The notes below the pieces were generated by a model. It saw only the letters and a program-made list of their open reading frames with translations. It was not told the origin of the DNA and did no database searches. Positions 13,573-38,083 of a stretch of 64,000 nt of DNA are shown here, in pieces. How positions within the stretch are numbered: the stretch's first letter is position 1; every line of letters starts with the position of its first letter. The position numbers and the translations under genes were made by a program. This DNA is from Paraeggerthella hongkongensis (GTDB lineage: Bacteria > Actinomycetota > Coriobacteriia > Coriobacteriales > Eggerthellaceae): positions 62,001 to 126,000 of the forward strand of contig NZ_PPTQ01000007.1 of assembly GCF_003340345.1 (NCBI RefSeq), given 5' to 3'.

Positions 13573-13621
13573 CCGCTCGTCCAAAAGGGCGATTGCGGAA
13601 TCCCGAAGATAGGAGCGTTTG

Positions 13622-14356: not shown

Positions 14357-15942
14357 ACATCGTTGAAATGGAGCACGTGAGCTTTTCCTATCAAGGTGCG
14401 CAGGGCGCAGCCTTGCACGATGTTGCCCTATCGGTTCGCGAAGGCGAGTTCGTGCTGGCCACCGGACGCAGCGGATGCGGAAAAACCACGCTTACGCGGC
14501 TGATGAACGGCTTGATCCCTCATTTCTTCCCGGGCAACCTGTCGGGCAAGGTGTTGGTGGGGGGAAGGGACGTACGCCAGCTTGCCACGTACGAATTGGC
14601 CGCCACGGTAGGGTCGGTGTTCCAGGATCCTCGATCGCAGTTCTTTACGACGAACACGGTGTCCGAGGTGGCGTTTGGCTGCGAGAACCTGGGTTTACCT
14701 TCCGACAGGATCGCATCGCAGGTCGAGGGTGCCTTCGCCGATTTCGCCATCGAGCATTTGAGGAACCGGAGCATCTTCGATCTTTCAAGCGGCGAGAAGC
14801 AGAAGGTGGCGCTTGCGTCTACGTACGCAATGGAGCCCAACCTGTTCGTCCTTGACGAGCCGTCCGCCAATCTTGACGTTCGGGCTACGCTCATGTTGGC
14901 CGACGTTTTGGCGGAACTGAAGAGGCGCGGGCGCACCGTCGTGGTGTCTGAGCATCGCCTGTACTACCTTATGGAGCTTGCCGATCGAGTAGTGTTCATG
15001 GAGGATGGGAGGATCGTGGACCAATGGACGCCCTCCCGGGCTCGTTCCCTTTCGCGGGACGAGCTGATGCGTCGTGGGCTTCGATTGTTCGATCTTGACG
15101 ATGTGGCGCCTGCGCGCGCTGGTTCGGCAGCGGCGGACGGCAGGGCGGGGCGTGCGGCGGGCGATGACGGCGCCGCGCCTGCATCTGCGGATCGGCGGGT
15201 GCAGGCGGATGTGCCCGTGTCGCCGCTTTTGCACGTGCGCGACGTGCGGCTGTCTTTTGGCGAGCGCGCTGTGTTGCGCGGCGTGGAATTCGATGCAGGA
15301 GGGCATGCGGGCGCCCGCTGCGCGCAGCGGGCGGAGGTTATCGGCATAACCGGGCCCAACGGGGCGGGAAAGACCACGCTCGCGCGTTGCCTTTGCGGTC
15401 TTTCGCGCCGCTGCCGCGGAACTGTAGAGCTTGACGGGCGCATGCTTCGTCGCCGGGCGCGCTCCCGCTCGATGTACTTCGTCATGCAAGATGCGGATTA
15501 CCAACTGTTCACCGAAAGCGTCGAGGACGAGTTGCGCCTTGGCAACGAGGACGACGGGACCCTTGACGAACGGGTGCGCGACGTGCTTGAGCGGTTGGGG
15601 ATGGCGTCGCTGCGAGGCGTTCATCCGATGGCGCTTTCGGGCGGGCAGAAGCAGCGCGTGACCATTGCATCCGCCGCTGTGAGCCCCGCGCGCGTTCTGC
15701 TTTTCGACGAACCGACAAGCGGGCTTGACGGCCACAGCATGCGCAGCGTGTGCGATATCGTGCGCGACCTTGCTTCTCGGGGGCGGCTCGTGTTCGTAAT
15801 CTCCCATGATCTCGAGTTTTTGGCGGGAGCGTGCGATCGGATCATCCACGTGCGCGACGGGGAAGTGACCGACGACTTTCTTCTGGTTGGACAAAACGTC
15901 GCTCGGCTTCGGTCGTTGCTGTTTCGCGGCGCCTCTGCTTGA
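14353..15942 (+). CDS. ecfA: ECF transporter ATPase, two fused ABC domains
   Basis: This 529-residue protein carries two complete ABC ATPase domains. The first has Walker A GRSGCGKTT near residue 39 and signature LSSGEKQK; the second has Walker A GPNGAGKTT near residue 333 and signature LSGGQKQR. A roughly 40-residue Ala/Arg-rich linker joins them. It therefore supplies both EcfA and EcfA' from one chain. The ATG at 14353 overlaps the EcfT stop. It is the last gene of the ECF operon. Confidence 0.93.
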   Translation: MNIVEMEHVSFSYQGAQGAALHDVALSVREGEFVLATGRSGCGKTTLTRLMNGLIPHFFPGNLSGKVLVGGRDVRQLATYELAATVGSVFQDPRSQFFTTNTVSEVAFGCENLGLPSDRIASQVEGAFADFAIEHLRNRSIFDLSSGEKQKVALASTYAMEPNLFVLDEPSANLDVRATLMLADVLAELKRRGRTVVVSEHRLYYLMELADRVVFMEDGRIVDQWTPSRARSLSRDELMRRGLRLFDLDDVAPARAGSAAADGRAGRAAGDDGAAPASADRRVQADVPVSPLLHVRDVRLSFGERAVLRGVEFDAGGHAGARCAQRAEVIGITGPNGAGKTTLARCLCGLSRRCRGTVELDGRMLRRRARSRSMYFVMQDADYQLFTESVEDELRLGNEDDGTLDERVRDVLERLGMASLRGVHPMALSGGQKQRVTIASAAVSPARVLLFDEPTSGLDGHSMRSVCDIVRDLASRGRLVFVISHDLEFLAGACDRIIHVRDGEVTDDFLLVGQNVARLRSLLFRGASA

Positions 15943-16405: not shown

Positions 16406-17065
16406 ATGGCGGATCCGATTGACGTGCGACCTTTGAGCGAGTCTCCCGTGTTTGCCGGCATACCGATGGAAGAGCGTGCGTCTTTGATTGCGGATGCGAA
16501 GGGCATGCTGCGCCGGTACCCTGGCGGCAGTTTGGTGCGCCGAGCGGGCGACGGGCTTGATTTCTACCCGGTGGTCGTGTCCGGCCGCGTGCAAGCTTCT
16601 TTGCCGCAGGGCGGGCTGGACCGCATCGTGTCCCTATTCGGCCCAGGCGATTCGTTCGCCGAGGCCGTCGCTTCGTCTTTGCGGCGCTGTCCCGTTGACA
16701 TTCGCGCGCTTGAGGACACGGTGCTGCTGTGCATTCCCGCTGCCGGGCTTCGCGCCTGCTCCCATGCGTGGGCATCGACTTTGCATGGAAACCTCATGAG
16801 CGAGATGTCGAAGAAGGTGCTGGTCCTCAGTCGCAGCCTTGCGGTCTTGAGCGAGCCGCGCCTGTCCGATCGCGTTCTGGCGTATCTGGACACGCTGCCG
16901 CGCAATGCGGACGGGAGCGTGACCGTTCCGTTCGGGCGCAGGGAATGGGCGGCGTGCCTGCGCGTGGCGGACAAGTCGCTGATCCGCGAGCTCAAGGTCA
17001 TGCAGGATGACGGCGTCATCGAGGTGGACGGTCGCACGGTTCGCGTGTTGCGGCAAGCTCGCTAG
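16406..17065 (+). CDS. Crp/Fnr-family transcriptional regulator
   Basis: The protein has 219 residues. An N-terminal cyclic-nucleotide-binding-like beta domain (about 10-120; IVSLFGPGDSFAE matches the family turn) is followed by a helix (about 125-150) and a C-terminal winged helix (about 165-218, RREWAACLRVADKSLIRELK). There is no N-terminal cysteine cluster like that of Fnr. The start is supported by GAAGGAGGG. The gene is flanked on both sides by iron-box-like sites and precedes the NEAT-like genes, so it may help control them; its ligand is unknown. Confidence 0.85.
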   Translation: MADPIDVRPLSESPVFAGIPMEERASLIADAKGMLRRYPGGSLVRRAGDGLDFYPVVVSGRVQASLPQGGLDRIVSLFGPGDSFAEAVASSLRRCPVDIRALEDTVLLCIPAAGLRACSHAWASTLHGNLMSEMSKKVLVLSRSLAVLSEPRLSDRVLAYLDTLPRNADGSVTVPFGRREWAACLRVADKSLIRELKVMQDDGVIEVDGRTVRVLRQAR

Positions 17066-17451: not shown

Positions 17452-18084
17452 ATGACCGAGATACGCGAAGGCATGCAGGATGCGTCCTTGTCACGCCGCG
17501 ACTTCCTCAAGGCGGCAGCAGGTGCCGCCGTTGTCGCAGCGGCGGCGGGCGTGGCGCTGCCGGACATCAACGCGAGCAAGGCGTTTGCGGCAAGTGCGGT
17601 GCCGCTGTCGGGCGCTTATGCGGCACCGGGCACTTACACGGTGACGGCGAACTTGTACGTGGACAAGCGCGATTCGCCTATCGGCAAGAACGCGTACGTC
17701 ACGAATCCGGGAAACCCGCCCTTCAACAAGCCCACTTCGCCCGTTGCGAACAATGCGACGCTCGTGGTGGTCGAGGGCGGTGCGAAGCTCTTGACCGTAC
17801 CCATTGTGAACAGCTCGTTCGGCGTATTGGAGATCGCTTCGGCCTCGCAAGACGGCCTGGTGCGCATCACCGAGAAGAAGATGGGGAAGTGGGTCATGCC
17901 GAACTTCCTGTGGTCTTCTCCTTACGACGAGCGCGTTGTCTCGCTGACGTTCGACGTGACGAACTTCGCCGGCGGCTCGGCGGTCGCGACGTTCGGCCCT
18001 TCGGCCGAGTACGCATCGTTTCCCCTGTACAAGGGACGCAAGACTTGGGATCTGCATCTTGTTGCCGATTTGGGCGCTGCGTAA
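17452..18084 (+). CDS. Tat-exported protein with one NEAT-like domain
   Basis: The protein has 210 residues. Residues 1-47 are a twin-arginine signal (SRRDFLKAAAGAAVVAAAAG), so it is exported folded. One domain follows (about 56-200) beginning APGTYTVTANLYVDK and containing NNATLVVVEGGAKLLTVPIV. That pattern (GTYTV start, NA-LVV, then a valine-rich strand) resembles iron-regulated NEAT haem-binding domains, and related repeats occur three times in the next gene. The NEAT assignment is by pattern and iron-box context, not by proven homology. A terminator-like hairpin separates it from the next gene. Confidence 0.75.
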   Translation: MTEIREGMQDASLSRRDFLKAAAGAAVVAAAAGVALPDINASKAFAASAVPLSGAYAAPGTYTVTANLYVDKRDSPIGKNAYVTNPGNPPFNKPTSPVANNATLVVVEGGAKLLTVPIVNSSFGVLEIASASQDGLVRITEKKMGKWVMPNFLWSSPYDERVVSLTFDVTNFAGGSAVATFGPSAEYASFPLYKGRKTWDLHLVADLGAA

Positions 18085-18100
18085 CGTTCCCTATGCGCTG

Positions 18101-18134
18101 AAGCCGGCTGCTGCATCTGCGGCAGCCGGCTTTT
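18101..18134 (+). terminator. Intrinsic terminator after the NEAT-like gene
   Basis: AAGCCGGCTGC (18101-18111) pairs perfectly with GCAGCCGGCTT (18122-18132) and runs into TTTT. It probably reduces, rather than abolishes, read-through into the large surface-protein gene. Confidence 0.8.
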
Positions 18135-18236
18135 CGAGGTTCCGTGACAGGTGCGCTTGGCGCTGGAGGCGCTGCGCGAACGGCCTGCATCGCGGTTGAT
18201 CGCACGTTGCATGAAACAGAAACGAGGAATGAAACC

Positions 18237-21200
18237 ATGAAGAACAAGGTGAACAGAGCAAGCGATTCGCTTGCGGGCGCCGTTCTTGCCGTGCTCTTGG
18301 TCGCTGCGTTGGTTCTGTCGCAGACGCCGGCCGGTTTTGCGTACGCATCTGCGCTCGGGCTGGCGGACGCGCCGGCGCATGCGCAAGGCGCAGAGGCTGC
18401 CGACGCTGCCGAAGGCGGCGCCCCTGGCGGCGAGGGCAAAGACGCGGCTGCGGCGCCGCTTGCGGAGCGCAGCGGGGAAGCGGACGATGCGGCGCGCAGG
18501 TCGCTCGACCGGGTTGACTCGCCGGACGGGAGCGCATCTGCGAAGGATGCTACGTCTTCTTCTGAAGAGCGCGCACCGGACGCCGTCGAAAAGCCGGCAT
18601 CGACAAACGCGGAAGGCGAATCCCGGGAAGGGGGTGCGAGCCTTGCCGTCGTCGAAGGCAAGGCTTCCGGCGAGCAGGCGGGGCCGCAAGGCGAAGGCTC
18701 CGAACCGTCGCGGGCCGCGCTCGGCAGCGCGCAAGGCGAAGGCTACGTTGCCCCTCAGGGCGCGAGCAGCGCCGAGCTTGCCGCAGGAACCTATACGGTT
18801 TCCGCCAACGTGTCCATGATGACGCCGATGGGCATTCGCGGGTATGCGACCAATCCCGCGAACCCTGAAGGAATCGGCGGCCAGATGGGCGTTCCTGCTG
18901 CGGCCGTGACGAACGGCAGCACGTTGGTCGTGGCGGCCGACGGAACCAGAACGCTCACGTTTACGCTGATCAACCCCGTGTTCACGGTGCAAGCCGCAGG
19001 GTCTTCCCCCAGTGCTTCCGTGGTGGAGGCCACGCGGGTTCCCATCGAGCTGAAAAGCGACGACAGCCAGTACAACGACGATCTGGCCAGCGCCGGCATC
19101 ACGTCGCGCATTTCCACGGTTACGGTGGAGTTGAAGGACTGGAGCGGAACGTACACGCTCCAGGGCTGCACGGAGTACGCCACCACGTTGAGAAAGTCGT
19201 TCAACATCGACCTGGACTTGACGGTTGATCTTGCCAACGCCGTGCGCGTTGTCGAGGGAGATTTCTCGAAGACGTTCGTTGACGACGAGGCGCGCGTGTC
19301 GGTGACGGTAAACGTGGAGGAGGGTTCGTCGGCGTTCGAATCGATCCAATCCGCCGAGCTTTCGGCGCAGCTCGTCGAAGACGAAGGACGCCGCTCGGCG
19401 GTGAAGCCCGCGCTCGGTCGGCAGTATCAGAAGGCTCCCGACTTCAGCTTGCTGGACGTGCGCCTGATTTCGGGCGGCGCGGATATTGCGGTTGACGACA
19501 AGGTGAAGTTCTCCGTTTCGCTGCCGGGCGAAAGCGGTTCCGAGGTGTTCTTGCACAAGGGCGCATCCCTGACTGCTCTTCCGGCTGCGCAGGCGGACGG
19601 CTCCCTGACGTTCGACAGCGCGCGGCTGGGATCGTTCGTGGTGACTTCGGCTCCAGGAGAGGCGAACGTTCGGTGGCTTCGGTCGTACACGTACGCCGAC
19701 GACGCTTCGGGCACGTCGGCAACGTGGGTGACCAACGGCTACAACGAAGCCGTGAACAACGACGCGTTGGATATGGACAAAGAAGAAGTCTTGTCGAATT
19801 TGTACGAAAGGTTGTACTTGCCCTTCGTGGGCGCCGTGGGCGCTCGCGCGCATGACGGAGCCGCGGTCGATCAGGCGTTGGAGCTGGTGAAAGAGTCGTC
19901 CGGCTTCAGCGATCCCGCCATCGAGGGTCTGTACGCGATGGGGCTCCATGTCGACATGACCTCTTTGGGAAGCAACCGAGTGCCCCTGGCGGCCGGGTTC
20001 GTGTCGACGATCGGCAACGGCAACTGCGCCTTGAGCGGCACGCTTCCGGTAAGCGGCAAGAACGTGGCGATCTATCTGGTGGAAGGAACGGCGGACAAGC
20101 TGACCAGCGCGACCAAGGTCGACGCGGCTATCGGCGGCGGCACGGCGTTCTTCGACATCCTTCCCGTTGACGGCAACGCCGTTGCGAACCTTGACGGGCT
20201 GGACGGCAGGTTGCTCAACGGCGCGTACCTTCTGAACGGGCACAAGGACTGGATGAACTCGGAAAACGTGGCGTACTACGTGGCGGTGGCCGAGGCTCCT
20301 GCGAAGATCGAGAAGCCGACCCCTGCCCAGGGCCTGGTGTACAACGGGCAGGAGCAAACAGGCGTCGCTCCGGGCGAAGGCTATCGCGTTTCCCTGACAG
20401 GTTCGGCCGTTGATGCCGGCTCCTATACCGCGCTGGTCACGCTCGAGGACGGCTATACGTGGGCGGACGGGTCGAAGGGCGCTGCGACGCTTGCATGGAC
20501 CATCGGGAAAGCGCAGCTGACCGCCGCGTACCGCAGTGAAACGGTCGCTGCGAACGAGGCTCCGCGACTGTCCGTGGACGTGTCCGGGTTCGTGAACGGG
20601 GAGACGGCGGCCTCGGCGAAGGGCTTCGCCGCGCCGACGGTTTCCGCCCCGGCGTCTTTGGAAGCGGGTGTAGCGTACAACCTGACGCCTGTGGGCGGCG
20701 CGGCTGCGAACTACGCGTTTTCCTACCGCAGCGGCGTGCTGACGGTTGCCGAAGCGCAGGCTCCGGCGCTTGCGCCCGGCACGTACGCAGTGACGGCGAA
20801 CCTGTTCGTTCCCTCGTCTGAAAACGACATTTTGCATCTGACGGCCTACATGACCAATCCCAAGAACCCAATGGAGCCCGAGGGAAGCCCGAACTTCGGG
20901 ATTCCCACCGACCCGATGTCCGACAACGCGAAGCTCGTGGTCAAGGAGGACGGTACGAAGCTGCTCGAACTGGAGCTGCCGAATCCGGCGTTCACCCTGA
21001 TCGATTTCGGAACGCCGGCGAGCGGCGCGCAGGTGCTCGGCATCGAGCGCGACGGCAAGCCGTACGGCGCCAACGCGCAGGGCCGCATCGTCAAAGCCGT
21101 TGTCAAGCTGGACGGCAACGATCCCGTCTTGACGTTTCCCGGGAGCCACGTGTATGCAGCTCCCTTGCGCCTGGATAAAACGTGGGGCCTGTCGCTGGCC

Positions 21201-22166
21201 GTGGACTACGCCAGCGCCGTGAAGCTGTCCGACAGCACCGACCTGGCCGTTCCGGGCGACAACGGAGGCTCTGCAGGAGGCGGTTCCGGCGGGGCGGGCT
21301 CTGCTGGGGAATCCTCCGGCAATGGCGGCGGATCCGCAAGTGCGGGCGGCTCCGGCAGCGCGAGCAGCGGCTCGGGCAACGCTGCCAGCGGCGAGGACGT
21401 TCGGCGCGGCACGCTGGCCGCCGGCACCTACACGGTGTCCGCCAATATCTGGCTGAGCAAACAAGACACGGGGCTTCCGTTGAATCCGCATCTGACCAGC
21501 GGGGATTTCCCGCCCATGAACCCGGTGGCGCGCAACGCCGTCCTGACCGTCGATGCTGCCGGGCGCGCTGCGGTGCAGGTTCCCATCGTCATTCAGTCGA
21601 GGATCATGACGGTGAACGCCATCAGCGGCTTGCGTATCGTGGACTCCAGCTCGAACGGCGGCGGCCTGTCTTCGATCACGGTCGACCTGGGCGTGCTGGA
21701 AGACGCCGCTTCGGTGGTCTCGCGATCGTGCACGGTGGACGTTACCATCGGGGATATGGCCATGGCTATCGGCGGGTCCATCTTCGGCGGCGAGCGCAAC
21801 CATACGTATCCGGCTACGTTCCAAATGAACCTCTCCGGCGTGCCCGCTTCGGGCGGCGGCTCGATTCCCGCTGCGGCCCTGGCCGTGATGAACGGCTCGG
21901 CGTCGGGCGATGCGGCGGCCAATGCTGAAAAGGCCACCGCCGAAGCTCTGGCTGCGGCCGAGGACAAGGCTGCGCGCGCCAAGGCCAAGGGCGTTGCGAC
22001 GAAGTCGAACCCGGCGCAAGCCGAAGCCGACAGCGCTTCGGCCGGCGATCCGGCTCTTGCGATCGGTTTGGGCGCGCTGGCCACGTTGGCCGTGGCCGGA
22101 GCGGCGGCGGGCACGTTCGCCTACCGCAGGAAGCGCGTGCCTTCGAAGGCTAAGGCCCGCTTCTAG
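18237..22166 (+). CDS. Large surface protein with three NEAT-like repeats
   Basis: The protein has 1309 residues. Residues 1-40 form a signal peptide. An Ala/Glu-rich acidic stretch runs to about 175. NEAT-like repeats start near 182 (LAAGTYTVSAN), 844 (LAPGTYAVTAN) and 1059 (LAAGTYTVSAN), each resembling the single domain of the preceding gene. Between them lie Ig-like and MBG-like segments (about 695-840, GLVYNGQEQTGV) and a Ser/Gly linker (about 1005-1055). The C-terminus is one membrane helix and a basic tail (YRRKRVPSKAKARF) without LPXTG, so it is membrane-anchored. The ATG at 18237 has GAGGAA upstream. Likely role: haem or metal capture at the surface, inferred. Confidence 0.85.
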   Translation: MKNKVNRASDSLAGAVLAVLLVAALVLSQTPAGFAYASALGLADAPAHAQGAEAADAAEGGAPGGEGKDAAAAPLAERSGEADDAARRSLDRVDSPDGSASAKDATSSSEERAPDAVEKPASTNAEGESREGGASLAVVEGKASGEQAGPQGEGSEPSRAALGSAQGEGYVAPQGASSAELAAGTYTVSANVSMMTPMGIRGYATNPANPEGIGGQMGVPAAAVTNGSTLVVAADGTRTLTFTLINPVFTVQAAGSSPSASVVEATRVPIELKSDDSQYNDDLASAGITSRISTVTVELKDWSGTYTLQGCTEYATTLRKSFNIDLDLTVDLANAVRVVEGDFSKTFVDDEARVSVTVNVEEGSSAFESIQSAELSAQLVEDEGRRSAVKPALGRQYQKAPDFSLLDVRLISGGADIAVDDKVKFSVSLPGESGSEVFLHKGASLTALPAAQADGSLTFDSARLGSFVVTSAPGEANVRWLRSYTYADDASGTSATWVTNGYNEAVNNDALDMDKEEVLSNLYERLYLPFVGAVGARAHDGAAVDQALELVKESSGFSDPAIEGLYAMGLHVDMTSLGSNRVPLAAGFVSTIGNGNCALSGTLPVSGKNVAIYLVEGTADKLTSATKVDAAIGGGTAFFDILPVDGNAVANLDGLDGRLLNGAYLLNGHKDWMNSENVAYYVAVAEAPAKIEKPTPAQGLVYNGQEQTGVAPGEGYRVSLTGSAVDAGSYTALVTLEDGYTWADGSKGAATLAWTIGKAQLTAAYRSETVAANEAPRLSVDVSGFVNGETAASAKGFAAPTVSAPASLEAGVAYNLTPVGGAAANYAFSYRSGVLTVAEAQAPALAPGTYAVTANLFVPSSENDILHLTAYMTNPKNPMEPEGSPNFGIPTDPMSDNAKLVVKEDGTKLLELELPNPAFTLIDFGTPASGAQVLGIERDGKPYGANAQGRIVKAVVKLDGNDPVLTFPGSHVYAAPLRLDKTWGLSLAVDYASAVKLSDSTDLAVPGDNGGSAGGGSGGAGSAGESSGNGGGSASAGGSGSASSGSGNAASGEDVRRGTLAAGTYTVSANIWLSKQDTGLPLNPHLTSGDFPPMNPVARNAVLTVDAAGRAAVQVPIVIQSRIMTVNAISGLRIVDSSSNGGGLSSITVDLGVLEDAASVVSRSCTVDVTIGDMAMAIGGSIFGGERNHTYPATFQMNLSGVPASGGGSIPAAALAVMNGSASGDAAANAEKATAEALAAAEDKAARAKAKGVATKSNPAQAEADSASAGDPALAIGLGALATLAVAGAAAGTFAYRRKRVPSKAKARF

Positions 22167-22261: not shown

Positions 22262-23374
22262 ATGAATCTGACAAGACGCGCGTTCTGCGCGTTTGCGAGC
22301 ACGGCCGTAGCAACGGCGGCCGTGGGTTTGGCGGGCTGCTCGTCGAGCGGCCCCGATCAAGGCGATGCGGCGCTCGGCACGATCGACCTGGTTGCGCAGC
22401 CCGAAAGCCGCGAGCTCATGGGCAGTCCCGATGCGTGCACTGCGCGCGTCGGCTTGATCATGGGCCCGCCATCCATGGGCCTTTCGCAGTTCATCGTGGC
22501 GGCGCGAGCCGGCAAGACGTTCAACGACTTCCAGTTCGAGCTGAGCGGCGTGGACTACGTGGGCCTTTCCGCCGCGTTCAACCAGGGCAGCTACGATATG
22601 TGCACGCTGCCGTCCAATATCGGCCCCATCCTGTACAACAACAAGGAGCTGAAGAACGACTACCAGGTAATAAGCGTCAACAACCTGGGCGTGCTCTACG
22701 GCATCACCACCGATCCGTCGGTGGCTGCCGTGGACGACCTTGCGGGTCGCACGGTGTACAGCTACGGCGAAGGCGGCACGCCCGAGTACACGATCGAGGC
22801 GTTGCTGGGCAAGATGGGCAAGGCGGGGTCGTTCAACCTTGAGTTCAAGTCGTCGCCGTTCGAAGTGCTGAACCTTTTGCAGGACGAACCGAACTGCGCG
22901 GCCATCCTTCCGCAGCCGTTCGTGTCGCTTTCGAAGCTCATGGTGGACCCCCTGTACGCGCCTATCGACATCGCCAAGGAATGGGATGCGGCGTTTGCCG
23001 ACACGGGGAGCCAGGTCGTTACCACGACCACGATCGTGAATCGGAAGTTTCTCGAAGAGCACGAGCAAGCCGTGATCGAGTACCTGCGGATGGCGGGACA
23101 ATCGGTGGCGTGGTCGCTCGAGAACATGTCGGCCGCGGCCGCTCTGCAAGAGGAGCTGGGGACGTTTCTGAACAACGCCGTGGCGCTGGACGCTATGCCC
23201 CAGATCAGCATGGTGAGCTTGACGGGAACCGACATGCGCACGGCGCTTTCGGGCTTTCTCGAGGAGCTGTACCGCTCGAACCCCGACTGGATTGGCGGCA
23301 AGGTTCCAGACGACGGGTTCTATTACCTGCCTCCCGTGGGCCAGCTTGACGATGCGGGCAGCGCGGGCGTGTAG
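22262..23374 (+). CDS. ABC importer substrate-binding lipoprotein (NitT/TauT-like)
   Basis: The protein has 370 residues, with a lipoprotein signal (LTRRAFCAF... lipobox LAGC near residue 28) and a periplasmic-binding-protein fold resembling the SsuA/TauA/ThiY group. The following permease and ATPase genes are 3 bp away and overlapping respectively, forming a complete importer. GAGG precedes the ATG at 22262. The ligand cannot be read from sequence. Its operon continues into an activase-type ATPase, which is unusual for this transporter class. Confidence 0.9.
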   Translation: MNLTRRAFCAFASTAVATAAVGLAGCSSSGPDQGDAALGTIDLVAQPESRELMGSPDACTARVGLIMGPPSMGLSQFIVAARAGKTFNDFQFELSGVDYVGLSAAFNQGSYDMCTLPSNIGPILYNNKELKNDYQVISVNNLGVLYGITTDPSVAAVDDLAGRTVYSYGEGGTPEYTIEALLGKMGKAGSFNLEFKSSPFEVLNLLQDEPNCAAILPQPFVSLSKLMVDPLYAPIDIAKEWDAAFADTGSQVVTTTTIVNRKFLEEHEQAVIEYLRMAGQSVAWSLENMSAAAALQEELGTFLNNAVALDAMPQISMVSLTGTDMRTALSGFLEELYRSNPDWIGGKVPDDGFYYLPPVGQLDDAGSAGV

Positions 23375-23377
23375 GCC

Positions 23378-24625
23378 ATGGGCGAACGGCGATCGAAAGA
23401 GCTGCTGAGGCGGCTGGGCGTGCGCATCGGGCGGGCGCGCGAAACGCGTGATACGGGCGAGGCCCCGCGCATGCAGGTGGCTCAGATAGCGCAGAAGCTG
23501 GGCATGCCCGAGGACAAGGTTGCGCAGGTTGTGCAGATGGTCAGGGAAAACGGCATGGACGACGCCCAGATGGGCTTCATGATGAGAACGGCCGTGTCCC
23601 GCGGCGTCGGCAGAGATCAGATCATGCAGATGATGACCTCCATGGGCGTTTCTTGCCAGCAGGTGGTGCGCGTCATGCAGGCGCAAAGCCTCATGGACGA
23701 CGAGGAAGCGCAGCTTGTTTTGGAAGAGGAGCGCGCCGGGCGGGAGCGCGTCGTTGCCACCCGAGGCGCGTCAAGGCGCATCGCAGGGGCGAAAAAGGCG
23801 CTGATCGTGCTGTTTTGGCTGGTCGTATGGGAAGTGCTCGATCGGGCGGTGGACAACCGCTTGGTTCTAGCCGGTCCTGTTCGGGTGCTGGAGGCGTTGG
23901 CGGAGCAGGTGGCGAAGCCCGACTTCTGGCTGATCTGCGGCGCTTCCACGGCGCGTATCGCCGCGGGGTTTCTCCTGTCGTTTTCCGTAGGGTTGCTGTT
24001 GGCTTTATTGGCGTACCGTGTGGCCGTCGTGCGCGACTTCATCGATCCCGTGATGTCGCTTCTGCGCACCATTCCCGTTATCTCGTTCATCATCATGCTG
24101 CTTATCTGGGTGGGCAACCAGGCGTTGACCGTGTACCTGGCGTTCTTGATCGTGCTGCCGCTGGTCTACACGTCCACGCTTGCCGGATTCGAGAGCGTGG
24201 ACCGGCACCTGCTGGAGATGGCGCGGGTGTTCAAGCTGTCCAGATGGCGCACGTTCATGTACGTGTACCGCCCTGCGTTCATGCCGTTTCTGGTGGCAAG
24301 TTCCCGCATATCGCTGGGAATGAGCTGGAAAAGCGGCATCATGGCCGAGGTTCTGGCCGTGCCCAAGCCCTCTATCGGCAAGGAGATGAGCCTGTCGCGC
24401 ACGTACCTGGACACGCCCGATCTGTTCGCGTGGACGGTGATGGTCATGGTGCTGAGCTTGGCGTTCGAGAAGGCGTTCATGGCGCTGCTGAAGCGCGCCG
24501 GACGTCCGCTGGGCGGCTTTTTGGGCGTGCGCGACGACGAGCGCGAAGGGCGCGCCCGACGAGGGCGGCGCGACGAGGGCGGCGCGAGCGACGCGGGAAA
24601 GGGCGATGCCGCATGGACATCGTGA
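23378..24625 (+). CDS. ABC importer permease with Met-rich N-terminal extension
   Basis: Residues ~140-380 are a typical NitT/TauT (SsuC-like) permease with about six helices and the EAA loop around LLEMARVFKLSRWRTFMYVYRPAFMP. The first ~125 residues are an extra soluble helical region with repeated, methionine-rich units (KLGMPEDKVAQVVQMVRENG, then QIMQMMTSMGV). I know of no standard permease with this extension. The C-terminal ~45 residues are Arg/Asp-rich. It overlaps the ATPase gene by 13 bp. Confidence 0.9.
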   Translation: MGERRSKELLRRLGVRIGRARETRDTGEAPRMQVAQIAQKLGMPEDKVAQVVQMVRENGMDDAQMGFMMRTAVSRGVGRDQIMQMMTSMGVSCQQVVRVMQAQSLMDDEEAQLVLEEERAGRERVVATRGASRRIAGAKKALIVLFWLVVWEVLDRAVDNRLVLAGPVRVLEALAEQVAKPDFWLICGASTARIAAGFLLSFSVGLLLALLAYRVAVVRDFIDPVMSLLRTIPVISFIIMLLIWVGNQALTVYLAFLIVLPLVYTSTLAGFESVDRHLLEMARVFKLSRWRTFMYVYRPAFMPFLVASSRISLGMSWKSGIMAEVLAVPKPSIGKEMSLSRTYLDTPDLFAWTVMVMVLSLAFEKAFMALLKRAGRPLGGFLGVRDDEREGRARRGRRDEGGASDAGKGDAAWTS

Positions 24626-25212
24626 TGGAGCGCGTGGACAAGTCGTTCGGAGACGCGCGCGTGCTGGCGGGCGTGACGTGCACGCTTTCCGAAGGCGGCG
24701 TGTACTGCCTGATGGGGCCTTCGGGCGCGGGCAAGACCACCTTGCTGCGCGTGCTGCTGGGCCTTGAGCGCGCCGACGCGGGGCGCATCGAGGGCGCGAC
24801 TTCCGGCGCGGTCTCAGCGATGTTTCAGGAGGACCGCCTGTGCGAGACGCTGACGGCCGTGGAGAACGTGGCGTTGGTGCTGCCCGCGCGGGCCAGCCGA
24901 CGCCAGATCCGCTGCATGCTGGAGAAGATCCTTCCCGCGGATTGCCTGAAGCGCCCGGTGATGCAGCTTTCGGGCGGCATGCGCCGACGCGTTTCGCTGG
25001 CAAGGGCGGTTGCCTATCCCGGCAGCGCGATCGTGCTGGACGAGCCGTTCACCGGGCTCGATGGGCAAACCAAGCGCGCGGTCATCGAGTTCTTGCTGGC
25101 CGAGCGGCGCGGACGCACGCTTTTGGCGTCAACGCACAGCGACGAGGACGTTGCGCTTCTGGGCGCCCGAAAAATCATGTTAACCGATATAACGAAGGGG
25201 GCTGCGCGATGA
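24613..25212 (+). CDS. ABC importer ATP-binding protein (SsuB/TauB-like, short)
   Basis: The protein has 199 residues with Walker A GPSGAGKTT near residue 36, Q-loop FQEDRLCETL, signature LSGGMRRR and Walker B AIVLDEPFTGL. FQEDRLCETLT is typical of the nitrate/sulfonate/taurine ATPases. It is shorter than the usual ~250 residues because the C-terminus stops soon after the H-loop (STHSDED). It overlaps both neighbours and energises the preceding permease. Confidence 0.92.
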   Translation: MDIVMERVDKSFGDARVLAGVTCTLSEGGVYCLMGPSGAGKTTLLRVLLGLERADAGRIEGATSGAVSAMFQEDRLCETLTAVENVALVLPARASRRQIRCMLEKILPADCLKRPVMQLSGGMRRRVSLARAVAYPGSAIVLDEPFTGLDGQTKRAVIEFLLAERRGRTLLASTHSDEDVALLGARKIMLTDITKGAAR

Positions 25213-25418
25213 TAGACGCGACGAAGACCATGAAGCAGACGGTGCTGGACGAGCCTTTGTTCGGGGAGTTCCTGGTGTCGAAGGGGTTTCCGTTTTCACT
25301 GGACAACCCTATAGCCGACCTGGTGACGTTCGCCGACGTGGTGCAGGTGCGCCAGCTGGACGAGCGCGCGTTTCTGGCCGAGTACGAGCGGTATCGCGTG
25401 CGCGCGAAGGGGGAATAG
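25209..25418 (+). CDS. Small DUF1858-like protein (69 aa)
   Basis: The protein has 69 residues, starting with an ATGA overlap on the ATPase gene. Its layout (short N-terminal strand, LFGEFLVSKGFPF, then a helical part) resembles the small DUF1858 domain that accompanies redox enzymes, but it lacks the usual cysteines. Its place between an ABC importer and the double activase suggests a role in the same process. The family assignment is tentative. Confidence 0.65.
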   Translation: MIDATKTMKQTVLDEPLFGEFLVSKGFPFSLDNPIADLVTFADVVQVRQLDERAFLAEYERYRVRAKGE

Positions 25419-25427
25419 GGGGCGGGC

Positions 25428-28400
25428 ATGTACACCGTTGGCATCGACATCGGCGCATCGTCGGTGAAACTCGTGGCGCTTACGGACGCCGAGGAGCTTG
25501 CGTGGCGCGAAAGCCGCCTGCATCGCGGGGCCGCGCTCGCGTGCCTGCGCGATATGCTGGCCGTTTTGGCGTCCAAGCTGCCGGAGGGCGAGTGCGCGGG
25601 CTGGGCCGCCGCCGGATCGGGGGCGGCGGCGCTGCGGGGCATCGATCCCGCTTGCCTTATGCTGGAAGAAGTGCCGGCGGTGTGCCAAGGCGCGCAGCTT
25701 CTGGCGCCCGAGGCGCGCTCGGTCATCGAGATAGGCGGGCAGTCGGCGCTGTTCGTTACGGGCGTCGGGTCGGGGCAGGTGCCTCAGTTCGCCATGAACG
25801 AAAGCTGCGCGGCGGGCACGGGGTCGTTTTTCGAGGACCAGATGGAGCGCTTGGGACTTGCCCTGGAAGAGTACTCGGATCTGGTGGAGGGCGCGGTTTC
25901 GGTGCCGCGCATCTCCGGGCGCTGCGCGGTGTTCGCAAAAACCGACATCATCCATCACCAGCAGGAGGGCGCGTCGGTGCAGGACATTCTGCTGGGTCTG
26001 TGCTTCGCCATGGTGAAAAGCTACAAGGCCACCATCGTGCGCGGGCTGCCCGTGGCGCGCCCGGTGGCGCTTTCCGGCGGCGTTCTAGCGAACCGCGGGG
26101 TGGTGCGGGCGGCGCGCGAGGTGTTCGAGCTTGGAGAAGGCGAGCTTTTGCACGCGCCCGACCACCTGTTTTTCCAAGCGGCGGGCGCGGCGCGCGAGGC
26201 CCGGGCGCAAGGCGGGCGCGCGCTTTCCGGCAAAGACGGCTGCCGCCCCCTTGCGATAGGCGACCTTGCCGCGCGGCTGGCTGAGCATACGGTCGACGAC
26301 GACCTGCCCCGGCTGCGCGCGCTGCCGTCCGTGCCGGTCGAGGCGAGGCCCGGGTTTCGGCTGCGCCCGCGGCCCTGGTCGGCTTCGACGGGCGAGCCGG
26401 TGGACTGCGCGCTGGGAATCGACGTGGGGTCCACGTCGACGAACCTGGTGCTGCTGGACGCACGGGGCGCGTTGCTGGACGTGCAATACCTGCGCACGCG
26501 CGGCGACGCGCGACGGGCGGTGCGCGAGGGCTTGGACTCGCTTGCGAAGCGCCTGGGCTCCGCCGTTCGCGTGACGGCCGTGGGCGTGACGGGTTCGGGG
26601 CGCAGCATGATCGGGAAGATGGTTGGCGCCGATGCCGTACGCGACGAGATCACTGCGCAAGCGCGCGCCGCCGTGGCTGCCGACGCGCGGGTCGACACCG
26701 TGTTCGAGATAGGGGGCCAGGACTCCAAGTACGTCAGCTTGAAGGACGGGCGGGTGGCCGATTTCCAAATGAACAAGATATGCGCGGCGGGCACCGGGTC
26801 GTTCGTCGAGGAGCAGGCTGCGCGCCTGGGCATCGAGCTTGCCGACTACGGGCCGCTGGCGCTGTCCTCGAAGGCACCTATTGACCTGGGGGAGCGCTGT
26901 ACGGTGTTCGTGGAGACGGCCATCAACGCGGCTTTGGCGAAAGGTGCGTCGACGGCCGATGTGGCGGCGGGCCTGTGCTTGTCGGTGGTGCGCAACTACC
27001 TGCATCGCGTAGTGGGAACCAAGCCGGTGGGCGCCCATGTGGTGCTGCAGGGCGGCGTGGCCTACAACCCCGGCATCGTGGCCGCGTTCAAGGCGCACCT
27101 GGGCGACGCCCTTTCGGTGTCGCCGTGGTTCGCCGTGTCGGGCGCGGTGGGCGCGGCCTTGCTCGCGCAGGAGGCCGGGGCGGAGGCCACGGCGTTTCGC
27201 GGGTTCGACCTGACGCGCGCGCCGCAGGCTTCGAGGGCCGTCGACCGCGCGTCCGTCGAGGAGAATCGTCGGTTCTTTCGCAAGGTCGACGAGTTGTTCT
27301 TGGAGGGGTACGACGCCCGCATCGATCCGTCCAAGCAAACGGTGGGCATTCCGCGCTGCCTTATGCTGCACAAGCTGTTTCCCCTGGCAAACGCGTTCTT
27401 CAAGCAGTTGGGCTACAACGTGCTGCTGTCCGATGCGACCGATGAGGAAACGGTGCGCCTCTCCCAGCAGACGGCTCAAGGGGAGACATGCTATCCCGTG
27501 AAGCTCGTCCACGGCCATCTGGAGCAGTTGGCGCGGCGCGGCGTGGACTACGTGTTCATGCCGGCGGTGCGCACGATTCGCCACGTCTCTTCCAAGGTCG
27601 CGCACAACTACGCGTGCCCCTACATGCAGTCGGCGCCGATGCTGGCGGCCAAGGAGCTTGACTTCGAGGGCCGCGGCATTCGCCTTTTGAGCCCGGTACT
27701 GGACATGGATTTCGGGCAGCAGGCCGTTGCCGAAGCGCTGCTGGGCGTGGGCGCGCAGCTGGGAAAGGAGCCGCGTGAAACCGCCCGCGCCATGCTGGCG
27801 GGCGGTTTCGCGGTGCAGGAGTTCACGCGTAAGACCGAAGAGCTGGGAGAGCAGCTGCTGGGTTCGCTCGGCCCCGACGAGCGCGTGCTCGTGCTGATCA
27901 CCCGCAACTACGGCATTGTCGATCCGGCGCTCAACATGGGCATTCCCGATGCGCTCCTGGACCGTGGCCGGAAGGTGATCACGGTGAGCCATCTGCATGC
28001 GCATGACGTGGACGTGTCGCAGGATCATCCGGGGCTGTACTGGCCGTTCGGGCAGCATATCGTGTCGGGCGCGAAGCTGGTGCGCCGCGATCCGCGCCTG
28101 TTCGCGGTGTACCTGACCAATCACGGGTGCGGCCCGGACACCATGGTGAGCCACCTGTTTCGCGAGGAGATGGGCGACAAGCCCTACCTGCATATCGAGA
28201 CCGACGAGCATTCTTCGCAGGTGGGGGTCGTGACGCGCATCGAGGCGTTTTTGAACGCGATCGACCACTACGAGCCGCGCGACGAGCGCGCGCTGCCCCT
28301 GGCGGGCCGTCCGTACGAGGCGCCGCACGCGACGCTCGATGCGCGGCGGGTTGTGGCGCTGCCGTCGTTCGGGGCGTGGGGGCCCTTGGTGGGCGGCTGG

Positions 28401-29390
28401 CTGGAGGGGCGCGGCCTGCGCGTGGAATTGCTGGAACCCGACGACGCGGCTGTGGCCGCCGGACGTGCGCGCAGCGCTTCGAAGGAGTACCTGTCGTTCA
28501 CGGCGCTGCTGGGAATGTCGTTGCGGGCGGCTGCGAAAGCCTCGGCGGAACGTGCCGGTGCGAGCGGCTTGCAGCTGCTGCTGCCTTCGACGGAAGGCGC
28601 CGAGGCCGACGGGCAGTACGACCGCGTGATCCGCGCCGTCTTGGACGAGGAAGGGGCGGCCGACGCGAAGCTGGTTGCGCCGATCCTCGATCAGCTGCCT
28701 TGGTCGATGCCCGATCCCGAGGGCTTCTTCCTGCATCTTTTGGCCGGCGACGTAGCCTACGCGGCCGACCAGGACGATCGTCAAGAGGTGCTGGACGGGT
28801 TCCTGCGCGATGGCGTGACGTTCGAGCGCGTATGCGCCGCGGCCCGCCGAGCGGGGGATGCGGCCGAAGGGGGTTCGCGCCGCGCCCGCAAGACGCTTGC
28901 GCTGGTGGGCGAGTGGCCTTTGGTGTACGCCGACCAGCTGACGGGCGGACGCTGGGAGGGCCTTGAGCGCGCAGGGTACCGCCTGGTGCGCATGCCGCTG
29001 TCCGAGTACCTGTGGTTTCTGTGGCGCGATGCGCGTCAGCCCGACGAGCTGCTGGCGGCCTTCGCCGCGCAGATGGCCGAAGTGCACCGTTCGTTGGGCT
29101 GCGCCTCGCCGTTTTGCGCCAGCTTGGACGACCTGCGGATTGCGGCTGACGAGGCGCTGGGGGGCTATCGGGGCGCGAACGGAAGGTACCGAGCGGCTAA
29201 GGCGCGCTTGGCGGCGCGCGAGGCGGACGGCGTGATAGCGGTGTCGTCGATGTACGAGAACACCGGCATCGTGCTCAAGCTGCTCGACGATGCCGACGAC
29301 CTTGCGGCTCCCGTGCTGCACGTGTCGTTCGACGGCGCGCTCGACCAGGGCATCGACGAGCGCTTGCGGTCGTTTCTCTACTACGTGTGA
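25428..29390 (+). CDS. Double BcrAD/HgdC-type activase fused to DUF2229/HgdB-like region
   Basis: The protein has 1320 residues. Two ASKHA ATPase domains of the 2-hydroxyacyl-CoA dehydratase activase type start near 1 (YTVGIDIGASSVKL) and 327 (ALGIDVGSTSTNLVLLD). Each keeps the two cysteines expected to hold a shared 4Fe-4S cluster (ESCAAGTG/RCAVF and KICAAGTG/RCTVF). A DUF2229-like region starts near 638 (IPRCLMLHKLFPLANAFFKQ) with conserved QGETCYPVKLVHGH and NYACPYM, and an HgdB-like C-terminal part follows. Such proteins drive ATP-dependent low-potential electron transfer. Here it is the last gene of an ABC importer operon; the target reaction is unknown. Confidence 0.9.
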   Translation: MYTVGIDIGASSVKLVALTDAEELAWRESRLHRGAALACLRDMLAVLASKLPEGECAGWAAAGSGAAALRGIDPACLMLEEVPAVCQGAQLLAPEARSVIEIGGQSALFVTGVGSGQVPQFAMNESCAAGTGSFFEDQMERLGLALEEYSDLVEGAVSVPRISGRCAVFAKTDIIHHQQEGASVQDILLGLCFAMVKSYKATIVRGLPVARPVALSGGVLANRGVVRAAREVFELGEGELLHAPDHLFFQAAGAAREARAQGGRALSGKDGCRPLAIGDLAARLAEHTVDDDLPRLRALPSVPVEARPGFRLRPRPWSASTGEPVDCALGIDVGSTSTNLVLLDARGALLDVQYLRTRGDARRAVREGLDSLAKRLGSAVRVTAVGVTGSGRSMIGKMVGADAVRDEITAQARAAVAADARVDTVFEIGGQDSKYVSLKDGRVADFQMNKICAAGTGSFVEEQAARLGIELADYGPLALSSKAPIDLGERCTVFVETAINAALAKGASTADVAAGLCLSVVRNYLHRVVGTKPVGAHVVLQGGVAYNPGIVAAFKAHLGDALSVSPWFAVSGAVGAALLAQEAGAEATAFRGFDLTRAPQASRAVDRASVEENRRFFRKVDELFLEGYDARIDPSKQTVGIPRCLMLHKLFPLANAFFKQLGYNVLLSDATDEETVRLSQQTAQGETCYPVKLVHGHLEQLARRGVDYVFMPAVRTIRHVSSKVAHNYACPYMQSAPMLAAKELDFEGRGIRLLSPVLDMDFGQQAVAEALLGVGAQLGKEPRETARAMLAGGFAVQEFTRKTEELGEQLLGSLGPDERVLVLITRNYGIVDPALNMGIPDALLDRGRKVITVSHLHAHDVDVSQDHPGLYWPFGQHIVSGAKLVRRDPRLFAVYLTNHGCGPDTMVSHLFREEMGDKPYLHIETDEHSSQVGVVTRIEAFLNAIDHYEPRDERALPLAGRPYEAPHATLDARRVVALPSFGAWGPLVGGWLEGRGLRVELLEPDDAAVAAGRARSASKEYLSFTALLGMSLRAAAKASAERAGASGLQLLLPSTEGAEADGQYDRVIRAVLDEEGAADAKLVAPILDQLPWSMPDPEGFFLHLLAGDVAYAADQDDRQEVLDGFLRDGVTFERVCAAARRAGDAAEGGSRRARKTLALVGEWPLVYADQLTGGRWEGLERAGYRLVRMPLSEYLWFLWRDARQPDELLAAFAAQMAEVHRSLGCASPFCASLDDLRIAADEALGGYRGANGRYRAAKARLAAREADGVIAVSSMYENTGIVLKLLDDADDLAAPVLHVSFDGALDQGIDERLRSFLYYV

Positions 29391-29476: not shown

Positions 29477-31912
29477 TTACTCCTGCGCTTTGAGCGCCAG
29501 GGCAAGCGGGACGCGCTTGATGCGCCTGGTGTGCAGAAACGCCACGACGGCGTACGTGGCAACGCCGATTGCCGCGATAAGCGCCAGGCGGTCGGCGGGC
29601 GCGTACGCCTCCATGTTGCCCCCGTATCCCGCGAGGGCAGCTCTGATCAGCGTCGATATACCCAGGACAACCAGGGGCAGGGATGCAAGGAGCGAGGCGA
29701 TCACCACGGTTGTGATGGAATGCAGGTACAGCTTGTTGATCTCGCGGTTTCGGTAGCCGAACACCTTCATGTACGAAATGCTGCGCGCGCTTCGATCCAG
29801 TACCGTTTTCGTGAGCAGGTACATGAGCACCAGGTAGACAAGCGTGGCCGCTGCCGTCATCATGTCCATCACATGGCCCATCGAGTCTTGCATCTGGGCG
29901 CTGATCTTGTCCATGTCGGCAGGGGCAAGATCGCTTGCCAGATAGCGTTCGTCCAGGTTGAGGCTTTCGTTCGACACGTATCCGTTGAAATAGCCGGCAT
30001 CGTTGCCGAACAGCTCGTTGAAGTCCTCGATGCTCAAGAACACCGCCATGCACGAGGAGCTGCCCCAAAGCGAGCTGGGGGTCAGCTCGTAGGCTGCGCC
30101 GTCGAACTTGTTCGAGAACGTTTGCGGCTCTCCGGGTTTCAGCCCGCATTTCTGCGCCAATCCGCGTCCTACGGCCACCTTTCCCTCGCCGACGTCGACG
30201 TCGTTCCAGTAGCGGGATCCTTCCGCGATGCCGTACACGACGACCTCTTCGTTCCCCTGTGCCAAGCGGGCGGTTTCCAGGCGCCCTGCGGCGAACTTCT
30301 CGGCCTGCTCGATGACGCTGCGGTCGTTCGGCTTCACGTTGACGGGGTGGGCTCCTTCCTGCACCGTCGAAGCTTTTTGCGCGAGCGCGGCAAGCTCGAT
30401 CGGGTCCATGGCTTCAAGTTGGGACTGCTCGGTTGCGGCCAGCGCGGTCGCGGCTGCGAACGCCTCGCGCTCGTCGTCGGTCGCGTCGATTTCGAGCGGC
30501 GCCTTGAGCAGGTACTGGTGCTCGGCCACCAGATCGTTGCGCAGGGAATCGGCGTAGTGCTCGATGGTGGGCATCATGCACAGCCCGAACAACAGCAGCA
30601 TGCTGGCGAACGCGATCCCCACGAACAGCGTGGCGAAGTGCGAAAGGTTGCGCAGGAACACGCGCAGCCTGAACCGCGCCGAAAAGCCAAGGCGCTCGGG
30701 AAGCTTCAGGGTTGCGCGCATGCCGGCCTTCGCCGTTTCGCGCCGTAGGAACATGAGCGGCGTGCAGCGCATCTTGCGCGCCAGCCCGACGGACGTGATT
30801 GCCATGAGCAGGAAAAACGGGATGACGGTGGTCAATCCGAAGGCGCGCCAGCTCCAGGCGGCAACGTAGGGCGGCAGGCTGTAGCTGTTGTAGTACAGGC
30901 CTTTCATGGGGTCGACCATGACGGTGTATCCCAGTACGTTGCCCGCCACGGCCGCCGCCAGGCCTACCAAGCAAGGCAGCGCCAGGTAATGCGCGATCAG
31001 CTCGCGTTTGCGGTATCCCGAAGCCAGAAGCGTGCCGATGACGGCGCTCTCTTCGTCGATGGCGGCCGAGGTCAGCACCACGAACACGAACGCCATGATG
31101 ACGATGAGCAGAAACAGCATGGTCTCCCAGGTGACCTGATCGCCCGCCACGTCTTCGGCGGCGTAGGTGATCCCTTGGTTCGACGCGGCGTCCACCAGAT
31201 CGGTCAGCAAGGCTCCGTGGCTGGCCAGCGCATCGGCGATGTCCTGCTCGGCGTCGATGCGCTCGGGCAGGGGCAAGGCGCGGTCGTCGAACAGGAAGGA
31301 GTAGACGTGGGAGACGCTCGCGCCTTCGAAGGACGCGAACGCGGCTCGGTCCACAACGGCGGTGCCGAACGTGAGCGTGTTCATGACGAAATCGGAGTTC
31401 TTTTCGAAAAGAGCCGCATAGTCGGGAAGCGTCATGATGCCCGACACGGTCAGATCCCGCCCGCCCACGCGCACCGTATCGCCCGTTTCGATGCGGGCAT
31501 GCTCCGCGAAGGTCCGATCGAGCGCGATCTCGTCGGCTCCCTGCGGGGCTTCGCCCTGCGCGTAAGCGGCCTCGTTGAAGCCGTTGCGGTTGAGGTGCAC
31601 GCGCACCGTGGCGCCCGGTGCGTCGTCGCGCTCGAGCGGCAGGTCGTAGCTGAAGTTCTCGTGCACGGACGCGCCCAGGTCCTCGACGGCCGCAAGCGCT
31701 TCGGCGGGCGCTTTCCGGCTTGTCGTGAAGCGCCCGTCCTCGACGGCGTAGGCGTCGCGCATGCCGTCGGTGATGCGCTCGATGCTGCTGGCTGCTGCAA
31801 GGAAGCCGGACACGAGCGTGATGGAGATGGTCATGAGCAGGAAGATGCCCAGATACCTGCCGAAGTTGTGCCTGAGCTCGCGCGGAAGGCGGCGGACAAG
31901 AGGGGTTGCCAT
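29477..31912 (-). CDS. FtsX-like ABC permease (MacB-type)
   Basis: The protein has 811 residues: an N-terminal membrane helix (about 17-40), a large extracytoplasmic region, and three-helix FtsX blocks around residues 265-380 and near the C-terminus, with a further soluble region between them. This duplicated FtsX layout is typical of single-chain MacB-like permeases in Gram-positive bacteria, which move peptides, lipids or drugs. It starts 7 bp after the ATPase gene. An iron box precedes the operon. Confidence 0.9.
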   Translation of the reverse strand: MATPLVRRLPRELRHNFGRYLGIFLLMTISITLVSGFLAAASSIERITDGMRDAYAVEDGRFTTSRKAPAEALAAVEDLGASVHENFSYDLPLERDDAPGATVRVHLNRNGFNEAAYAQGEAPQGADEIALDRTFAEHARIETGDTVRVGGRDLTVSGIMTLPDYAALFEKNSDFVMNTLTFGTAVVDRAAFASFEGASVSHVYSFLFDDRALPLPERIDAEQDIADALASHGALLTDLVDAASNQGITYAAEDVAGDQVTWETMLFLLIVIMAFVFVVLTSAAIDEESAVIGTLLASGYRKRELIAHYLALPCLVGLAAAVAGNVLGYTVMVDPMKGLYYNSYSLPPYVAAWSWRAFGLTTVIPFFLLMAITSVGLARKMRCTPLMFLRRETAKAGMRATLKLPERLGFSARFRLRVFLRNLSHFATLFVGIAFASMLLLFGLCMMPTIEHYADSLRNDLVAEHQYLLKAPLEIDATDDEREAFAAATALAATEQSQLEAMDPIELAALAQKASTVQEGAHPVNVKPNDRSVIEQAEKFAAGRLETARLAQGNEEVVVYGIAEGSRYWNDVDVGEGKVAVGRGLAQKCGLKPGEPQTFSNKFDGAAYELTPSSLWGSSSCMAVFLSIEDFNELFGNDAGYFNGYVSNESLNLDERYLASDLAPADMDKISAQMQDSMGHVMDMMTAAATLVYLVLMYLLTKTVLDRSARSISYMKVFGYRNREINKLYLHSITTVVIASLLASLPLVVLGISTLIRAALAGYGGNMEAYAPADRLALIAAIGVATYAVVAFLHTRRIKRVPLALALKAQE

Positions 31913-31919
31913 GGCGCGC

Positions 31920-32729
31920 CTACCATTCCAGATCGCGCGCAGCGAGCACCTGCTGGTTGCGCGCGTCTTCGGCCAGGACCCCGTCGCGCAGCCGTAGGAC
32001 GCGATGGGCCATGTGCCTGATGGCGTCGTTGTGCGTGACGATAACGATGGTGCAGCCGTAGTCGCGGTTGACCCGTTCCATCAACTCAAATATCTCTTTC
32101 GAGGTTTGATAGTCCAACGCGCCCGTCGGCTCGTCGCACAGCAGCAGGCGAGGGTTTTTCACGAGCGCGCGCCCGATCGCGCAACGCTGCTGCTGCCCGC
32201 CCGATATTTGGCGCGGGAACTTTCCGCGATGGTCCCATAGCCCCAGCGAATGCAGCAGGTCGTCAAGGGGAAGCGGGTTTGCGCTGAGATGGCGGCACAC
32301 CTCGATGTTCTCGCGCACGGTCAGGTCGGGGATCAGATTGTAGAACTGGAACACGAATCCCAGCTCGCGTCGGCGGTACTCGCCAAGCTCCTTGTCGGAA
32401 AGGCCGGTCAGCTCAACGCCTCCCACGCGGATGGAGCCCGAGTCGGCCGGCTCCAGCCCGCCTACCAGGTTGAGGAACGTGGACTTTCCCGAGCCCGAAG
32501 GCCCGAGCAGCGCGCATACGGCGCCCTGTTCGATGGTCGTGGCAATGTCCGAGAGCACGGTGGCGCGCGCTTCGCCTTCTCCGTAGTGCTTGCAAAGGCC
32601 GTCGACCGACAGGAAGACGGGGTCGATCGCCGGGCGTTCGCGGCGTTCGTCGGAGTCGGCGTCTTGCGCCTTGCGGTTTTCGTGGGGGTCGTGCTTCTTC
32701 GGGGGGAAGAAGGCTGCTTGGTTGGACAT
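31920..32729 (-). CDS. ABC transporter ATP-binding protein (MacB/LolD-type)
   Basis: The protein has 269 residues with Walker [10 protein letters not shown] near residue 74, signature [15 protein letters not shown] and Walker [13 protein letters not shown], typical of the ATPase partner of FtsX-like permeases. An unusual charged extension of about 38 residues ([20 protein letters not shown]) precedes the domain. It is the first gene of the two-gene operon and lies 34 bp downstream of an iron-box-like site. Confidence 0.92.
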
Positions 32730-37955: not shown

Positions 37956-38083
37956 CATCGAACGAGGCGCTGCCTTATCGATTGTGAATCCGCTGACCCG
38001 GCGGCAGAGGCTCCTCTCGTCTGGCCGACTGCCGCATCATGCAAGCGGAGGGAAGATCCCCCCTTCTTCCCTCCGCTTTTCTT
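37956..38083 (+). ncRNA. Candidate iron-regulated small RNA (~125 nt)
   Basis: From the predicted start the sequence runs about 90 nt with no convincing gene, then ends in a strong intrinsic terminator: AAGCGGAGGGAAGA (38043-38056) pairs with its complement at 38065-38078, followed by TTTT. Because the terminator lies before the dtxR ribosome site, the promoter would yield a short RNA, or an attenuated dtxR leader. Both boundaries are predictions. Confidence 0.4.

Follow-up and report, generated by a model that had tools for sequence, protein, structure and literature searches.

The window analysed here, a stretch of 64,000 nucleotides from the 2.86 Mb Paraeggerthella hongkongensis genome, contains five plus-strand genes packed between positions 22262 and 29390. 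These encode a 370 aa substrate-binding receptor lipoprotein with a Tat/lipoprotein start (MNLTRR...LAGC; 22262-23374), a 415 aa permease of the NitT/TauT/SsuC type (23378-24625; Pfam BPD_transp_1, E 7e-18), a 199 aa importer ATPase (24613-25212; Pfam ABC_tran, E 6e-25), a 69 aa DUF1858-like protein which has no cysteines in the alignment of orthologues (25209-25418), and a 1320 aa protein combining a double BcrD/BcrA-type activase with a DUF2229/HgdB-like reductase part (25428-29390). The receptor and permease genes are separated by 3 bases, the permease and ATPase genes overlap by 13 bases, the ATPase and small-protein genes overlap by 4 bases, and a gap of 9 bases precedes the activase gene. 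This close packing, with gaps and overlaps of 3-13 bases, and the Pfam and NCBIfam matches of the permease, ATPase and activase bear out the five-gene arrangement proposed over this span in the first-pass annotation, but the span is incomplete, as the genes for NEAT-like proteins directly upstream (17452-22166) are part of the same locus. These surface proteins had been overlooked, and provide the best clue to the substrate.

The upstream region consists of a plus-strand gene for a Crp/Fnr-type regulator (16406-17065; Pfam cNMP_binding, E 4e-11, and HTH_Crp_2), which is probably part of the same system, followed by plus-strand genes for a 210 aa Tat-exported protein, identified by its Tat signal and by fold search as a single NEAT-like domain (17452-18084), and for a 1310 aa surface protein that contains an MBG_2 domain besides three or more NEAT-like domains and is anchored in the membrane at its C terminus (18234-22166). 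The domain copies in the latter are located at 18774-19253, 20769-21233 and 21411-21908. Further upstream of the Crp gene are an ABC exporter pair, an AraC regulator and an ECF transporter with an MptD/Trep_Strep S component (8197-15942), which were rejected as parts of the system since among the carriers they are found in the Paraeggerthella loci only. On the other side, an FtsX-like permease and ATPase pair on the minus strand (29477-32729) is convergent with the activase gene; in locus L036 the activase is also followed by a pair of this kind. An ordinary iron/tetrapyrrole-type importer set is found 9 kb downstream (38039-42614), comprising a DtxR-type repressor, an FmdE protein, a FecCD-like permease, a FecE-like ATPase and, on the opposite strand, a FecB-like receptor; these Fec parts (38.0-42.6 kb) were identified by reading the translations, with only the ATPase assigned by a model.

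One repeated domain of the surface proteins was modelled with AlphaFold2 from 30 sequences, giving a model with pLDDT 87 and pTM 0.84. A Foldseek search of the PDB placed IsdX1 first (probability 1.00, E 2.9e-3), with the NEAT domains of IsdX2-NEAT5, IsdA and IsdC among the further leading matches, and gave no match with E <1e-3. With VIA-align the 13 top structures were all NEAT/Shp, at moderate Z values of 5.6-6.2 and with the first unrelated fold at Z 5.5, and by both methods the model has the NEAT beta-sandwich fold. At the sequence level, none of the 30 domains matched Pfam NEAT (PF05031) at E<=1, an hhalign profile comparison with canonical NEATs gave 7% probability, and a PDB sequence search with the domain profile returned no match. 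Because Pfam and hhalign failed, we do not claim NEAT homology at the sequence level, the support being that of the fold search, and since the Z values are also moderate the domains are described here as having a predicted NEAT-like fold, not as members of the NEAT family. One alignment column contains Tyr (39) or His (19) in 58 of the 62 aligned domains and would suit a role as iron ligand; it falls in a different region from the canonical YxxxY heme-binding motif of strand 8, and a Tyr close to the last strands is found in only about half. Coriobacteriales bacterium DNF00809 additionally has a cluster of proteins whose NEAT domains are canonical (L094, L097; G079/G167 C8).

The importer combines a BPD_transp_1 permease with a SsuA/TauA-like receptor, and thus is of the NitT/TauT type, although the receptor match is weak (SsuA, E 0.055); the closest solved structure of the receptor is 3hn0 (E 1.5e-5). 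Importers of this type take up small organic compounds and anions, and with its BPD_transp_1 permease the operon does not encode a FecCD-type heme importer. The nearest NCBIfam model for the permease is SaoP (NF040733; 82.1 bits versus a cut-off of 295), with the nitrate, sulfonate and taurine permease models also near. The permease carries an N-terminal extension of approximately 100 aa which is rich in methionine (13 Met in 105 aa, window 23468-23782), and which is present in most orthologues and absent from those in L075 and L089. The DUF1858-like label of the small protein is weak: it holds for two of five orthologues (best Pfam E 0.0016), but not for the window's own 69 aa protein, which matched nothing in Pfam or NCBIfam; a PADLOC scan of this protein also gave nothing.

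In the activase, the BcrAD_BadFG domain (PF01869) is found in two stretches (E 3e-72), together with DUF2229 (E 8e-54) and a match to HGD-D (E 7e-5) which is under the curated cut-off; the score against TIGR00241 is 278.8 bits with a cut-off of 125.4. The ATPase halves match 4EHU, 1HUX and 9GAI, with Z ~30 for the first half, and a model of residues 1-1181 (pLDDT 81) also matches activases at Z ~30. In a PDB profile search, the best matches were MbdP for the first half and MbdQ and the Acidaminococcus activator for the second half. Both the ATPase domain model and the fold assign the protein to the activase family, as do two cluster-type cysteines per ATPase unit: Cys 127, 166, 452 and 491 in the ATPase halves are invariant in 19 sequences, and these four, like Cys 688, 730 and 901 of the DUF2229/HgdB part, do not vary in the clade or in paralogues. 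This parallels the pattern in the 2-hydroxyacyl-CoA dehydratases, where one [4Fe-4S] cluster is held by two cysteines per activase unit and the reductase cluster by three (review PMC11574389), and because of this parallel the chain appears to have everything required for ATP-driven injection of electrons into its own reductase part, with cluster binding presumed from the invariant cysteines.

A giant double activase is in itself nothing unusual, since stand-alone paralogues of 1300-1800 aa are found in almost every relative and also, at C45, in the source genome. Matches were obtained in 58 of 60 relatives, mostly as frames of 1300-1800 aa with 30-37% identity, whereas those found beside an importer stand out as a subset at 43-99% identity. 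A tree of 34 proteins places the 19 activases linked to the importer in one clade (support 100/100), separated from the paralogues by a branch of 2.87.

Conservation was surveyed by tblastn of the window genes over the neighbourhoods of relatives. The order receptor, permease, ATPase, small protein, activase is kept in at least 13 other loci from approximately nine genera, at 50-75% identity, and therefore is not a product of chance. The carriers are G001, G009, G012, G019, G078, G093, G118, G124, G125 (twice), G127 and G137, as well as Collinsella sp. AK_207A, of which the contig is possibly mis-binned, while in G083 the order is kept as far as the contig end. Counted with an optional Crp gene between the ATPase and DUF1858-like genes, the order is present in 14 loci, and NEAT-like genes are directly upstream in 13 of these. 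The NEAT-like domain, the DUF1858-like protein and the clade receptor (scored as present at >400 bits) have an identical distribution, in 14/138 genomes of the family and 9/48 genera, with Fisher's exact p values for co-occurrence of 2e-19 by genome and 6e-10 by genus, both uncorrected for phylogeny. A distant version in G020 and G076 (receptor 26%, activase 43-44% identity) is without the small protein and the NEAT-like domain, and Coriobacteriales bacterium DNF00809 (G079) has the receptor, permease, ATPase and small protein but lacks the activase of this clade. One or two small cupins directly follow the activase or importer genes in L037, L069, L088, L090, L091, L107 and L108, and are absent in the window.

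The position of the Crp-like gene varies, as it lies between the ATPase and small-protein genes in G083, G118 and G127 and upstream in other relatives; orthologues were identified by tblastn in L070, L073-L077 and L088. Several of the genes also share open frames: the ATPase and the DUF1858-like protein in G019, the permease, ATPase and DUF1858-like protein in G125, the Crp-like regulator and the DUF1858-like protein in G118, and the ATPase and activase in G020 and G076. Single ATPase-activase frames are located at 6741-11546 (minus strand) in L035 and at 8806-13503 in L103, i.e. in two species of one genus. Internal starts within such fused frames cannot be excluded in all cases, and in G020 the sole in-frame start at the activase is a TTG without a clear ribosome site. 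The tie between the activase and a dedicated importer, as proposed in the first-pass annotation, is supported by the conserved order, the single clade and the fused open frames, and the opposite outcome, an order unique to this genome with the activase usually standing alone, is not what was found for the importer-linked clade. The capture, import and activase genes very probably constitute one functional system.

The system extends beyond this family: in Flavonifractor sp. An100 and Intestinimonas butyriciproducens An565 the order is NEAT-like, NEAT-like, receptor, activase, cupin and DtxR-type repressor; this repressor matches the Pfam iron-dependent repressor (E 1e-10), and as its best NCBIfam model is MntR, below the cut-off, control by manganese is possible. 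A second copy in Flavonifractor consists of the activase gene with divergent Crp, receptor, permease, ATPase and two cupin genes, and has a heavy-metal P-type ATPase, AraC, FeoB and two DtxR genes within 10 kb. A similar heavy-metal P-type ATPase adjoins the system in two Firmicutes (L092, 2207-4297; L107, 10889-12979). Cohnella fermenti has the NEAT-like genes, receptor, permease and ATPase, and no activase of any kind. As Cohnella and G079 both have the NEAT-like importer and lack the clade activase, the importer can work without it, and with G020 and G076 lacking the NEAT-like domain, the surface/importer half and the activase half are separable. In view of Cohnella and G079, the earlier proposal that the imported substrate needs difficult reduction still stands as an inference.

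Gene content, gene order, shared distribution, the model fold of the NEAT-like domains, the activase architecture and its cysteines were all computed, and from these we infer a heme ligand, cluster binding and action of the activase on the imported compound. Our tentative reading, to which we give a little less than an even chance, is of a system for surface capture, import and ATP-driven reduction, most likely of heme or another tetrapyrrole as a source of iron. Heme or a tetrapyrrole is favoured because of the NEAT-like fold and the iron genes near the Firmicutes copies, and the window itself has the DtxR-type gene and Fec set described above, while the importer type, which is not FecCD, and the failed NEAT sequence tests stand against it; for heme itself as the ligand we consider the chances evenly balanced. 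Uptake for the supply of heme as a cofactor is unlikely, since ferrochelatase is present in all 14 carriers, and heme auxotrophy was accordingly rejected as the reason for uptake; searching for cytochromes with PF03264 yielded no informative contrast. What remains as the best reading is that the compound serves as a source of iron and is processed reductively, although that the imported ligand is reduced at all falls somewhat short of an even prospect.

In the proposed mechanism, the surface NEAT-like proteins would catch the ligand, for which heme or a related tetrapyrrole is the likeliest candidate, and hand it to the lipoprotein receptor of the NitT/TauT-type ABC importer. In the cytoplasm, ATP would drive low-potential electrons from a [4Fe-4S] cluster that the two ATPase halves share (Cys 127, 166, 452 and 491) to a second cluster in the HgdB-like part (Cys 688, 730 and 901), which may reduce the ligand, for instance with opening of the macrocycle or demetallation, so that iron would be freed without oxygen. 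Expression would be controlled by the Crp-like protein, with DtxR-type repressors added in some Firmicutes, and the DUF1858-like protein may serve the importer or the regulator as an adaptor.

It is rather unlikely that the compound captured and imported is not a tetrapyrrole but an aromatic or sulfonated organic molecule, of dietary or host origin, which the activase would reduce in the manner of benzoyl-CoA reductase, with the NEAT-like fold as a mere scaffold. The cargo range of NitT/TauT importers, the SaoP, nitrate, sulfonate and taurine models nearest to the permease, the resemblance of the activase halves to MbdQ and MbdP of 3-methylbenzoyl-CoA reductase and the failure of Pfam NEAT all fit such a compound, but NEAT structures head the fold search, the Firmicutes copies have iron-related neighbours, and the conserved set is without a CoA ligase or other catabolic gene. 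The activase might also leave the imported ligand alone and reductively activate or repair a separate metalloenzyme or cofactor, with the importer supplying a cofactor or metal complex; known small activases do work on a partner enzyme (review PMC11574389), and MCR is a tetrapyrrole enzyme with ATP-driven activation, though by a different ATPase (PMC12176620). As the HgdB-like reductase part with its three invariant cysteines is in the activase's own chain and the cluster is without a conserved partner enzyme, we regard this as unlikely.

A third explanation, in which the importer and activase are ordinary parts joined by chance or by shared regulation with no common function, could draw on their separation in G079 and Cohnella and on that of the NEAT-like domain and activase in G020 and G076, but is highly improbable given an order conserved over approximately nine genera and into the Firmicutes, a single activase clade, fused frames and identical distribution. 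If capture and reduction of a tetrapyrrole is indeed the function, this would explain the use of host or dietary tetrapyrroles by a group of anaerobic Coriobacteria from the gut and mouth (Paraeggerthella, Slackia, Senegalimassilia, Gordonibacter and others) and by some Oscillospiraceae, would provide the first testable substrate class for the giant double activases that are widespread in anaerobes, and would extend surface heme capture to bacteria without a Pfam-detectable NEAT domain. The furthest-reaching version, in which the activase would itself reduce the porphyrin or its iron at the expense of ATP, as a third oxygen-free heme-iron chemistry next to ring opening by radical SAM enzymes and de-chelation by HmuS, coupled to NEAT-like capture and to the first NitT/TauT-type tetrapyrrole importer, is doubtful.

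In agreement with the first-pass annotation, no described pathway of such composition was found in the limited open literature searched; the kinds of components are already known, and it is their combination for which no description was found there. The locus resembles the Isd-type NEAT uptake systems (IsdA/C/H, IsdX1/X2, Shp; IsdEF) in having secreted or anchored multi-domain proteins of NEAT-like fold beside a lipoprotein-dependent ABC importer, but its domains escape Pfam NEAT, its importer is of the NitT/TauT type rather than the FecCD type, and a giant ATP-driven activase takes the place of a heme oxygenase or IsdG. Carriage of heme by importers of other types has been described for LhaSTA (PMC7299338). 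The SAO (selenocysteine-assisted organometallic) systems share NitT/TauT-like ABC parts, and SaoP as the nearest permease model, but no selenoprotein frames were seen here, and membership was rejected on the SaoP equivalog cut-off (82.1 versus 295 bits). With HgdC, HadI, BcrAD and MbdPQ the activase shares ASKHA ATPase halves with two invariant cysteines each and an HgdB-like part, the first half being nearest to BcrD/MbdP and the second to BcrA/MbdQ, but here both halves and the reductase are in one importer-linked chain with no acyl-CoA genes nearby. The stand-alone giant double activases have the same domain order (BcrAD x2, DUF2229, HgdB-like) and the same seven invariant cysteines, but are only ~30% identical, belong to a separate clade and have no adjoining importer or NEAT-like genes. 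The MCR activation complex was rejected as a direct model, as its component A2 ATPase is an ABC protein and not an activase (PMC12176620). Anaerobic release of heme iron has been described for the radical SAM enzymes HmuW/HutW (PMC10404700), and for the NADH-dependent heme de-chelatase HmuS, which has a Met-rich insertion (PMC12583661) resembling the Met-rich extension of the operon permease. The operon would serve the same end, i.e. heme iron without oxygen, but with unrelated enzymes, and neither of these routes employs an ATP-driven activase.
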